Shown here piece by piece: positions 50,356 through 54,314 of a stretch of 64,000 nt of DNA. The notes under the pieces were generated by a model. The model ran no database searches, was not told where the DNA came from, and worked only from the letters and a program-made list of their open reading frames with translations. Position numbers and translations under genes: made by a program. Location of the stretch: contig BEHV01000006.1 in assembly GCA_002898315.1 (NCBI GenBank), positions 60,984 through 124,983 of the forward strand, written 5' to 3'. Within the stretch, counting starts at the first letter, position 1; the number at the start of each line of letters is the position of its first letter. Origin of the DNA: a bacterium HR19 (lineage in GTDB: Bacteria > Calescibacteriota > Calescibacteriia > Calescibacteriales > Calescibacteriaceae).

Positions 50356-51360
50356 TCAGATTATATTTTTTTGATAGAGAAGTTCTGCTATTTGTACAGC
50401 GTTGAGAGCAGCTCCTTTTCGCAGGTTATCTGCAACAATCCACATAGCGAGCTCGCCTGTTTCTGTTTTTCTTATCCTTCCGACAAAAACATCGTCTGTT
50501 CCGCTCAACTCGTCAGGAGTTGGATAAATATCTTCCCTGGTGTTATTCATAAGAGTTATTCCTTTTGCAGAACTCAAAACTCTTTCTACATCAGGAAGAG
50601 CGAAATCCTTTTGAAGTTCAGCGTATACGACCTCTGAATGACAGACATAAACGGGCACCCTCACACATGTGACGCTAACCTTTATATCTGCTTCCATTAT
50701 CTTTTTCGTTTCATTCACCATCTTCATCTCTTCTTCTGTAAAGCCATTATCTAACACTTTTCCTATTCTTGGAATGAGGTTGAACGCTATTTTTTTTGGG
50801 AAGACGCCGGGGACCATATCTTTTCCTTCAAGATGAGAAACGGTACTTTCAGTGAGTTCGTCAACAGCTTTTTTTCCGGCACCAGAAACAGATTGGTAGG
50901 TAGCGACAGAAACTTTTTTCACATAAAAGGCATCATGAATAGGTTTTAGAGCAACGACGAGCTGTATTGTTGAGCAGTTCGGATTAGCGATTATTCCTTT
51001 TTTGATGTCGTTTATTCTGTGAGGATTAACTTCTGGAACTATGAGAGGGACATCGGGGTCCATTCTCCATCTTGAAGAGTTATCTATAACTATTGCTCCG
51101 CTTTTTGCGAAAAGTGGGGCAAATATTCCGCTAACGGTTGAGCCAGCAGAAAAAAGAGCTATATCTATTCCTTTGAAATCCCCATTTTCTTTGAGGGCTT
51201 TGACTTTTATCTTTTCTCCCTTGAACTCTAATTCTTCACCTTCTGATCTTTCTGAGGCGAAAAGTTTCAGTTCTTTTACGGGAAAATTTCTCTGCTCCAG
51301 GGTTTTTATCATTTCTCTTCCGACAAGTCCTGTCGCTCCTACCACTGCTACCGAATACAT
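50356..51360 (-). CDS. asd: Aspartate-semialdehyde dehydrogenase
   Basis: Second step of the aspartate pathway to lysine, diaminopimelate, methionine and threonine. VAVVGATGLVGREMIKTLEQRNFP, the catalytic NPNCSTIQLVVAL, SVSGAGKKAVDEL and FNLIPRIG are typical, and GAALNAVQIAELL ends it. 334 aa. The ATG at 51360 gives the expected start (MYSVAVVGATG). It is convergent with fliF. 106 bases separate it from the Toprim gene upstream. Confidence 0.95.
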   Translation of the reverse strand: MYSVAVVGATGLVGREMIKTLEQRNFPVKELKLFASERSEGEELEFKGEKIKVKALKENGDFKGIDIALFSAGSTVSGIFAPLFAKSGAIVIDNSSRWRMDPDVPLIVPEVNPHRINDIKKGIIANPNCSTIQLVVALKPIHDAFYVKKVSVATYQSVSGAGKKAVDELTESTVSHLEGKDMVPGVFPKKIAFNLIPRIGKVLDNGFTEEEMKMVNETKKIMEADIKVSVTCVRVPVYVCHSEVVYAELQKDFALPDVERVLSSAKGITLMNNTREDIYPTPDELSGTDDVFVGRIRKTETGELAMWIVADNLRKGAALNAVQIAELLYQKNII

Positions 51361-51466
51361 ATACAAAATTCTAATCTTGTATCGTAGATAATGTTAATAT
51401 TCCATAAAAATTATTATTGTCATTTCTCATAACTGAAATTTTTCTCGCATGTTCTGCTTTGATGAT

Positions 51467-52006
51467 TTAATATTTACAACTGTGAGAATCTTTAAGATTT
51501 TTTGATCTGGGTAAGTATCTGAATGACCCATTTTTCTGCTTGGCTGTTTTGATGGAAAAATTTCTCAGAACTTCCAACATAAAGTCAATTCGGGAAAACT
51601 TTTTCGGGATTAAATTGTCAAATTGCTCTTTTGTGATATTATCTGTGTTGCTAAAAATAGGTATGCCAAGTTTTTCAGCTTCCGCATCTTCTAATCCAGC
51701 AAGATACCAGCTTTCTATTTCTTTTATTACCACAATTATTCTTTCTTCGTCAATACTTTTCAGTTTATTTTTTACCTCCTGTTTTTTGGCGGTTATACAT
51801 GGTGAATTGTTAATATCTACCACAAAAATATACTCTGCACCCATAGAATTAATGCTTTTGATGTACCCTTTGATCTTTTCTTTCTTTTCATTTGCGTGTT
51901 TTATTATTTTCACATAATCATATTTTCCTTCCAACTTTGGTTTGATTATATTTTTAAAGAATAGTTCGTCATTATTACCTTCAACAAATATAAAAATTCC
52001 TCTCAT
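51467..52006 (-). CDS. Toprim-like nuclease candidate paired with the AAA ATPase
   Basis: 179 residues. The start IFVEGNNDELFF resembles the Toprim glutamate strand, IFVVDINNSP the next acidic strand (Asp but not DxD), and KEIESWYLAGLED the late Glu block of DUF4276/RloB-like proteins. The C-terminus is basic. It lies five bases after the ATPase stop, without its own clear ribosome site, so it is coupled to that gene. Pairs of an ABC-type ATPase and a Toprim protein occur in several phage defence systems (AbiL, PARIS, RloAB). Function here is inference. Confidence 0.6.
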   Translation of the reverse strand: MRGIFIFVEGNNDELFFKNIIKPKLEGKYDYVKIIKHANEKKEKIKGYIKSINSMGAEYIFVVDINNSPCITAKKQEVKNKLKSIDEERIIVVIKEIESWYLAGLEDAEAEKLGIPIFSNTDNITKEQFDNLIPKKFSRIDFMLEVLRNFSIKTAKQKNGSFRYLPRSKNLKDSHSCKY

Positions 52007-52011
52007 GAACG

Positions 52012-53232
52012 CTAAAGCAGATTTTGGACATAGAGTTCTTCAATTCCTATTTCATTTTGCAAGAATATCTTTACCTCATCTTTACCTGATGGTCTTGAAA
52101 TCAGAGAGAAGCCATCTTTATCACGAGAAACAAGCAAGATATTCTCCAATCCCGCATATTTTACTATTTCAGGGTTATGGGTTGTGATGATAATTTGTTT
52201 ATTTTGTGAGGCATCCTTCATCATATCTACTACCTTGGAGATAAGGTAAGGATGTATATTTCGCTCAGGTTCCTCAATTATAATCAGAGGTTTTTCCTCA
52301 AAATATAAAGCGACGAGCAAAGCAATTATGTTTATTGTTCCATCGGAAATCAAAGACGCTGGAATGTAATCCTTAAAATATGTTTCCTGCAATTTGAAAA
52401 ACAGAGATTTATCTGCAAATTTTTCCACTCCAATATCACTTACAAATGGCAAAAGATATTTCAAAAGATTAAATAGTTTTCTCTTCTTCTCCGCGTTTTT
52501 AATGATATTTTTAAGAACAATAGATAAATTACTCCCATCTTCTTCTAACTCGGCTTTTCCGGTAATTGGAGTAGCTTTTTTAGGCAACTTAGGGTCAAAA
52601 TTATATATTGAAATACTGCTGAAAATTGGAGGCTTAAAGAACGGTTCTGCAAGAAGAATGGTATTAGGGGGTAATTCTTTCCCCTTCAAAAATGGCGGAT
52701 ATATATCATCTTCTTTTATCGGTACTTCTTCTGGTTTTATTTCAGCTTTTACTTTTCCATTAACATTAGATACAATAATTTCTCCTTCAGTTTCTTCTCT
52801 CTCTTCTATTTTTTTCTTTTGCATCTCAAGCCTAGGAAACTTACATTTAAAAGATAAAATATCTCTAGAAACTTCAAATCCTAATCCTTCTTCTCTAAAC
52901 TTCAATACAAACTCATAAGTTATCTCATGCACTTTTATCATTATTAAACCTTCCTTCTTTGCTATCAAAGATGTAAATCCTTCGTCAGAAACGACTTTTA
53001 GGAAAAAGACCTCATCTGCGCCAATCTTTATATTTTTCAGATACTCAACACCTCCTTGCATAGATATTGCGTTTTCTAATCCTTCTCTTTCTATATCTCT
53101 CAGAAACTGAAAAATTTGAACAAAATTAGATTTCCCAGAAGCGTTCGCCCCAATCAATACATTAAACTTTCCCAGCTCAATTTCTAGCTCTTTAAAACTC
53201 TTGAAGTTCTTTACCTCTATCTTTTTTATCAT
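52012..53232 (-). CDS. OLD/RecF-like AAA ATPase (AAA_15/21 type)
   Basis: 406 residues with the ABC-type ATPase core: IKKIEVKNFKSFKELEIELGKFNVLIGANASGKSN (Walker A), then an insert of about 200 residues, then LISDGTINIIALLVALYFEEKPLIIIEEPERNIHPYLI (signature-like, Walker B with EEP) and ITTHNPEIV (switch His). This resembles RloA, OLD and other SMC-like defence ATPases rather than transporters. GGAG precedes the ATG. The Toprim-like gene follows with a five-base gap. A small ORF (53255-53509) may be the first gene. Confidence 0.8.
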   Translation of the reverse strand: MIKKIEVKNFKSFKELEIELGKFNVLIGANASGKSNFVQIFQFLRDIEREGLENAISMQGGVEYLKNIKIGADEVFFLKVVSDEGFTSLIAKKEGLIMIKVHEITYEFVLKFREEGLGFEVSRDILSFKCKFPRLEMQKKKIEEREETEGEIIVSNVNGKVKAEIKPEEVPIKEDDIYPPFLKGKELPPNTILLAEPFFKPPIFSSISIYNFDPKLPKKATPITGKAELEEDGSNLSIVLKNIIKNAEKKRKLFNLLKYLLPFVSDIGVEKFADKSLFFKLQETYFKDYIPASLISDGTINIIALLVALYFEEKPLIIIEEPERNIHPYLISKVVDMMKDASQNKQIIITTHNPEIVKYAGLENILLVSRDKDGFSLISRPSGKDEVKIFLQNEIGIEELYVQNLL

Positions 53233-53254
53233 CTTTTAATCTCCATTCAACTAT

Positions 53255-53509
53255 TTATAATATTAATTTTTTACTGACAAAGAGAATTTTCTCTATTTCA
53301 ATATTTGCTTTCCAACGCTTTTTCAAGCCAGCAGAGCTTCCGGTAAATCTTAAAAGAAATGCATTATTAGAGAGTAGATATTTCCCTTCTGTATCTGATT
53401 TTTTAAAATTCTTTCTGATGTATAAAGCGTTTGCAGGTTGTGTTAGGTGTTTCAAATGCAGAGCGCTATCAAAAATTGCTGTAAATTTAATTTTAGCTTC
53501 TATTTTCAT
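53255..53509 (-). CDS. Small unknown ORF upstream of the ATPase, overlapping fliP antisense
   Basis: 84 residues (MKIEAKIKFTAIFDSALH...), no family recognised. It has AAGGTAAG about six bases before its ATG, and its stop is 22 bases before the ATPase start, so it could be the first gene of that cassette. It overlaps the first 92 bases of the fliP ORF on the other strand, so one of the two ends is probably wrong. Confidence 0.4.
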   Translation of the reverse strand: MKIEAKIKFTAIFDSALHLKHLTQPANALYIRKNFKKSDTEGKYLLSNNAFLLRFTGSSAGLKKRWKANIEIEKILFVSKKLIL

Positions 53510-54314
53510 CGTATTCTTACCTTACAAAGCTTGGTATAATTCCGAACGCTCTGGTTTTTATCATCTGGCTTTTGCAGAGGAGACAAAGCAAAAAGAACTT
53601 TCCCCTCCGCGTGCTCCTTCTAAACCAACCCCCCCTACTCCACCAATCCCCCCTATAACAATTCAGATAGGAGAAGGCAGAGAAGGATTCATAAACTCAA
53701 TAAGGATAGTTCTTCTTCTCACAATACTGACACTCGCTCCATCACTACTTATACTTATGACCTCCTTTACAAGAATAGTTATAGTCCTTTTCCTTTTGAG
53801 GCAGGCAATAGGTATAGTTCAGGTTCCACCAAACCAAGTCCTTATAGGATTGGCTTTATTTCTCTCTATTTTTATAATGAAACCCGCACTTCAAGAAAGC
53901 TATTCAAATGCTTTCAAACCTTACTCAGAGGGTAAGATTGAAGAGATAGAGTTCATTTCAAAAGCTTTTGAGCCATTCAAAAAGTTCATGCTGAAGCAGG
54001 TGGGAGAGAAAGAGCTTGATGTTTTTCTGAAAATCGCAGGTAAAGGGAGACCATCTTCTCCATCAGAAATCTCGGCAGATGTCCTGATTCCGGCATTTAT
54101 CATATCTGAAATAAAGAGGGGATTTGAGATAGGTTTTTTGATATATATTCCTTTCATAATTATTGATATTGTTATCGCATCAATACTTATGGCTATGGGA
54201 ATGATAATGGTTCCACCTATAATACTTTCTGTTCCCTTCAAACTCATAGCTTTTGTCGTAGCAGACGGGTGGACGCTTCTGACAAGCTCACTTGTAGGAA
54301 GCTTTATAAAATAA
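53418..54314 (+). CDS. fliP: Flagellar export-gate protein FliP
   Basis: Core of the flagellar type III export gate. After an N-terminal hydrophobic segment (IAVNLILASIFIVFLP) and an AFA cleavage-like site comes a proline-rich stretch (APSKPTPPTPPIPPI). The four-helix protein follows: SIRIVLLLTILTLAPSLLILMTSFTRIVIVLFLLRQAIG, then LIPAFIISEIKRGFEIGFLIYIPFIIIDIVIAS and MIMVPPIILSVPFKLIAFVVADGW. 298 aa. The start at 53418 is uncertain: it overlaps the antisense ORF, and an extended -10 lies inside the first 120 bases. fliQ and fliR do not follow. Confidence 0.9.
   Translation: MYKAFAGCVRCFKCRALSKIAVNLILASIFIVFLPYKAWYNSERSGFYHLAFAEETKQKELSPPRAPSKPTPPTPPIPPITIQIGEGREGFINSIRIVLLLTILTLAPSLLILMTSFTRIVIVLFLLRQAIGIVQVPPNQVLIGLALFLSIFIMKPALQESYSNAFKPYSEGKIEEIEFISKAFEPFKKFMLKQVGEKELDVFLKIAGKGRPSSPSEISADVLIPAFIISEIKRGFEIGFLIYIPFIIIDIVIASILMAMGMIMVPPIILSVPFKLIAFVVADGWTLLTSSLVGSFIK
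53532..53540 (+). promoter_or_regulatory. Possible extended -10 promoter inside the fliP 5' region
   Basis: TGGTATAAT matches an extended -10. It falls 115 bases inside the annotated fliP frame. If used, translation would have to start downstream, but no good start codon follows, so this may be chance or drive another transcript. Confidence 0.25.

Follow-up and report, generated by a model that had tools for sequence, protein, structure and literature searches.

Two small genes, encoding an ABC-type ATPase and a Toprim-like protein, lie between asd and fliP in bacterium HR19 and raise the question of whether they make up an anti-phage defence cassette, of what kind and with how many genes. 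We addressed this question in the window, a 64,000-nucleotide stretch of contig BEHV01000006.1, and by comparison with related genomes and known defence systems. The pair probably belongs, as a split OLD-type system, to the HEC-01 kind of candidate anti-phage modules and is a compact two-gene unit acquired horizontally, whose defence activity, trigger and target we infer from better characterized systems. The original prediction had been an OLD-like ATPase and Toprim defence cassette with a third gene and of a variant type; the cassette is upheld by profile matches, the predicted fold, active-site residues and the empty site of a relative, while the third gene and the variant type do not stand.

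The asd–fliP locus and its empty site

The ATPase ORF (52012–53232) and the Toprim ORF (51467–52006) are intact, adjacent and separated by 5 bases on the minus strand. They are flanked by asd (50356–51366, minus strand) and fliP (53418–54314, plus strand; Pfam FliP E 6e-77). A relative of the same genus (G002) carries asd and fliP on a single contig in the same divergent arrangement and lacks the pair. In blastn comparison, the window and G002 are 90% identical through asd up to position 51361 and 88% identical from 53399 onward, which delimits an insert at approximately 51362–53398 (with no strand assigned) that is missing from the relative. The asd–fliP junction of G002 is thus an empty site, confirming the proposal that the pair was inserted here. 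In G001, G003 and G004 the two flanking genes were located on separate contigs, and a search of these three genomes for the Toprim gene found none.

Gain of the pair at the asd–fliP site is the most likely history; loss from G002 is the less likely alternative because the pair is rare. The GC content of the pair (32%, versus 37% for the window) falls in the lowest 2% of window segments of equal size. The insert borders were searched for terminal repeats and target duplication, none of which was clear, and we therefore reject transposon insertion or target duplication for want of convincing border repeats. The gap between asd and fliP in G002 is itself occupied by ~330 bp of unrelated DNA, and the insert may have taken the place of older intergenic sequence. 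This gap DNA (L040:2165-2490) has no good match elsewhere among five related genomes; short matches (~20-45 bases), most of them towards the side next to fliP, recur elsewhere in these genomes.

An 84-aa ORF just upstream of the ATPase gene had been taken for a third gene. The ORF exists (53255–53509, minus strand), but several lines of evidence speak against its being a gene. A three-gene variant defence type, with the 84-aa protein as regulator or further component, would fit the 22 nt that separate the end of the ORF from the ATPase start and the 59% identity of its first 39 codons to G002. We nevertheless consider such a type extremely unlikely. The first 92 nt of the ORF are antisense to the fliP ORF, in its leader, and its homology breaks off near codon 39, at the edge of the insert: only the first 38-39 codons have a match in G002, where the frame then meets a TAA after codon 38 in a genome without the pair, and the later codons fall in DNA that G002 lacks. 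Within the overlap with fliP, substitutions between the window's genome (G000) and G002 are spread evenly over codon positions 1/2/3 of the 84-aa frame (7/8/9), and this absence of bias gives no sign of protein-level selection; the fliP leader is equally unbiased (8/7/10), so in this stretch the test speaks for neither frame. ORFs as long as this one arise often by chance at the local base composition, with 0.59 per 3.4 kb in simulated DNA, or 0.26 if only ATG starts are counted. Conservation of the 84-aa ORF with the pair had been suggested as a check; no homologue of it was found beside any homologous ATPase–Toprim pair, nor is any small ORF shared upstream of the homologues' ATPase genes. 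Judging from these sequence comparisons, the ORF is most plausibly a product of chance that straddles the insertion boundary, and the G002 comparison together with its absence from homologous pairs leads us to reject it as a third component.

The neighbourhood of fliP showed two further features. No purifying selection was seen across fliP codons 1-56 (window:53418-53585), where G000 and G002 differ by codon position 8/7/10 and 7/8/7; from codon 57 on, the changes (2/3/50) indicate strong constraint. The real start, or leader, of fliP is uncertain as judged from the sequence. Two minus-strand ORFs of 131 and 538 aa beside fliP (window:54334-56381) have no Pfam match.

The ATPase and Toprim proteins

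The 406-aa protein was originally described as an ABC-type ATPase with Walker A, EEP Walker B and TTHNPE motifs, and this description holds. Walker A (GANASGKS) is located at residue 28, the signature (SDGT) at 296, Walker B (EEPE) at 320 and the switch (TTHNPE) at 350, and profile searches identify an OLD-like protein. The best PADLOC profile is HEC-01A (E 3.5e-54, 183 bits, residues 2-380), followed by PDC-M07A, AriA, AbiLi (E 5e-30) and mad3, and the protein matches Pfam AAA_21 (E 1.3e-32). An alignment of nine homologues contains 66 invariant residues, with the Walker and switch motifs among them. The predicted structure is of low confidence (pLDDT 65); its best fold matches are Thermus scotoductus OLD, GajA and PtuA, in agreement with the sequence, and with a model of this quality the fold search supports only what the sequence already shows. 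We presume that this HEC-01A-like, OLD-type ABC ATPase is the sensor or regulator of the pair.

The 179-aa protein, presumably a nuclease effector, carries VEGNNDE at residue 8 and DIN at residue 64. Its best PADLOC profile is HEC-01B (E 3e-10), which covers only residues 38-105 of 179, followed by mad4 (E 6e-6) and, weakly, AriB (E 1e-3). HEC-01B was matched by all seven aligned Toprim proteins, six of which also have weak Pfam matches to DUF3226, OLD-like_TOPRIM and DUF4276. AlphaFold2 predicts a confident Toprim fold (pLDDT 87), for which the best five PDB structures are all OLD or Gabija Toprims, at probabilities of 0.97-1.00 but E-values of only 3e-3 to 1e-2. Comparison of the sequence itself with solved structures gave no meaningful direct match, and a search of BFVD with the model gave no confident match, a weak viral RloB-like model appearing at rank 5.

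The residues of the putative active site provide a more specific comparison. In Burkholderia pseudomallei OLD (BpOLD), metal A is bound directly by E400 and D455 and through waters by D457, while E508 binds metal B with the help of E404 and T506, and K562 assists; D457 makes water-mediated contacts only, and the single D457A mutation has no discernible effect (PMC6755086). E9, D13, D64, E96 and E98 of the Toprim protein are invariant in nine homologues and, matched by motif and spacing rather than by superposition, correspond to this two-metal site: E9/D13 to E400/E404 (both +4), D64 to D455, and E96/E98 to T506/E508. The catalytic glutamate and the first aspartate are thus present, and the residues align as a Toprim reading demands. 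By a spacing argument, K156 or K158 could take the role of K562, though neither lysine is invariant.

Position 66, the second residue of the DxD motif, is asparagine in 5/9 homologues (the window's protein and 4/8 others) and aspartate in 4/9. Fold and active-site alignment bear out the Toprim-like identity of the protein; its departure from DxD had been read correctly as a motif but had also been taken as the mark of a variant type, which we reject since D and N alternate among close homologues. Because of this alternation and the harmlessness of D457A in BpOLD, the DxN is a tolerated substitution within a family that is Toprim/OLD-like by fold and by its other residues.

Comparison with known systems and a proposed mechanism

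Associations between an ATPase and a Toprim protein are an established kind of system that includes class 4 OLD/PARIS, AbiL, MADS and others (PMC12409363, PMC10568477, PMC12839542). The search against PADLOC models that had been suggested for the pair places it closest to HEC-01: the two best profiles are HEC-01A and HEC-01B, HEC-01A covers nearly the full ATPase, and the genes are two and adjacent, although the similarity to HEC-01B is partial and the loci observed for this clade are solitary rather than inside a defence island. This assignment is made at the level of individual profile matches rather than of a PADLOC system call with its coverage and E-value rules. HEC stands for "Hma-embedded candidate"; a paper on archaeal immunity reports several of these candidates to be active and names HEC-06 but not HEC-01 (PMC12988326). 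Among the papers searched, none was dedicated to HEC-01.

The remaining systems are more distant. PARIS (AriA/AriB, class 4 OLD) shares the split between an ABC ATPase and a Toprim nuclease encoded by neighbouring genes, but the AriB profile match is weaker here than that of HEC-01B and the best AriA match coincides in length and boundaries with the generic AAA_21 model, which places the pair outside PARIS; triggering by Ocr and tRNA cleavage are features known from PARIS rather than from this pair. OLD classes 1 and 2 and the Gabija protein GajA share the Toprim fold, the OLD-like ATPase and the site pattern of a glutamate, an acid at +4, DxD/N and a helical-domain glutamate, whereas here the ATPase and Toprim are separate proteins. 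Gabija, moreover, pairs its fused GajA with the helicase GajB, which is not adjacent to this pair. With MADS the likeness lies in the ATPase match to MAD3 (NCBIfam, E 2.5e-42) and the Toprim match to mad4; the MAD3 score of 146 bits, however, falls short of the cut-off (420), and the neighbours are asd and fliP rather than other MADS genes, so the pair falls outside MADS as well. AbiL and RloA-RloB likewise combine an ATPase with a small Toprim protein, and both the AbiLi match and the weak viral RloB-like fold match point in their direction, but the scores are far below that of HEC-01A and a sequence match to RloB or AbiLii is absent. The pair adds one more case to a candidate kind that is already in the catalogues, with HEC-01 as the closest entry. 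We see only a slight chance that the clade instead forms a class of its own among split OLD systems, one that has spread between bacteria, archaea and phages, tolerates D or N at its Toprim site, and differs in target or trigger from PARIS, Gabija and other HEC-01 systems.

A mechanism can be proposed by analogy. In PARIS, the Toprim protein AriB is kept sequestered by a hexamer of the ATPase and cleaves tRNA once a phage protein has set it free (PMC12409363), and in Gabija and OLD the Toprim cleaves DNA (PMC10568477). In the present pair the ATPase probably does the sensing and restraining, with the Toprim protein as effector; the order of the two genes, their tight coupling and the conservation of the ATPase motifs and of the active site all fit this model. 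An ATPase oligomer would hold the small Toprim protein inactive while monitoring for a phage product or a phage-altered DNA or nucleotide state. Once triggered, it would release or activate the Toprim protein, which would use two metal ions to cut nucleic acid, either tRNA (as AriB does) or DNA (as OLD and GajA do), so that growth would be stopped or the invading DNA destroyed. We infer complex formation, phage triggering, cleavage and an abortive outcome from PARIS, Gabija and OLD. With only two small genes, the target of the nuclease (tRNA or DNA), its trigger and the tolerance of asparagine in DxD are directly testable.

Distribution and probable mobility of the pair

In a scan of species genomes, the ATPase turned up at 43-72% identity in bacteria of WOR-3, Ignavibacteria, Bacteroidales and Atribacteria and in two archaea, of Altarchaeum and Methanophagales (ANME-1), each time followed by a Toprim gene. 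The pairing is strict: in 8/8 intact pairs the ATPase gene comes first, with a gap of -1 to 16 nt to the Toprim gene. The Toprim gene is frame-shifted on the Altarchaeum contig and the ATPase gene on the ANME-1 contig, either of which could be an assembly error. The pair is patchily distributed. None of the four nearest relatives has it, and among 386 genomes spread outward from the window's own, a match was found in five, including the window's own; G119 and G347 hold intact pairs, and G054 and G090 hold decayed copies or fragments. As the Bacteroidales partner is 72% identical while the nearest relatives lack the pair, this distribution is best explained, on sequence grounds, by horizontal transfer.

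The pair is also carried by a phage. The 40-kb viral contig IMGVR_UViG_3300011829_000020 encodes it (L046:3980-5772; 39% identical, extending the range over all carriers to 39-72%) within a replication region, where ssb and a radical SAM gene flank it and genes for a helicase loader and for a Holliday-junction resolvase lie nearby; here the ATPase and Toprim ORFs overlap by 1 base. A tblastn search of plasmid and sequenced-phage records with the Toprim protein gave no match. The HR19 locus is a well-bounded example, with a same-genus empty site, of a little-studied, domain-crossing and phage-carried ATPase–Toprim candidate.

The flanks of the homologues differ everywhere and include gltX with a nucleotidyltransferase-HEPN pair, aro genes, polA, ndk and a sigma factor; apart from the nucleotidyltransferase-HEPN pair, these names were assigned by eye from the sequences. 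Most homologous pairs adjoin such housekeeping genes rather than defence islands. This placement, and the precedent of Cran1, an OLD protein that acts in the archaeal cell cycle and shows that some OLD proteins are not defensive (PMC12796447), would suit a housekeeping DNA repair or cell-cycle role for an OLD-like ATPase-nickase. Such a role seems improbable for a pair that is missing from the four nearest relatives and from 381/386 genomes searched, that has a clear empty site in G002, and whose decayed copies are tolerated.

These decayed copies, together with the compact, solitary and patchy nature of the pair, would agree with a mobile, selfish module resembling a toxin–antitoxin system, in which the Toprim is the toxin, the ATPase its restrainer, and the pair is maintained by addiction rather than for phage defence. 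The nucleotidyltransferase-HEPN pair lies directly upstream of the WOR-3 ATPase–Toprim pair (L025:4930-5657), and PDB entries describe AriA as an antitoxin. The same anatomy is, however, common to PARIS, which is defensive, and carriage by a phage also argues against addiction; the two roles overlap in any case. We regard a purely selfish module as unlikely, if less so than a housekeeping role, and favour the candidate anti-phage module. The decayed pair of G054 (L044:1-5406), which is interrupted by stops and frameshifts, adjoins an AAA-ATPase_like/PDDEXK_9 protein.
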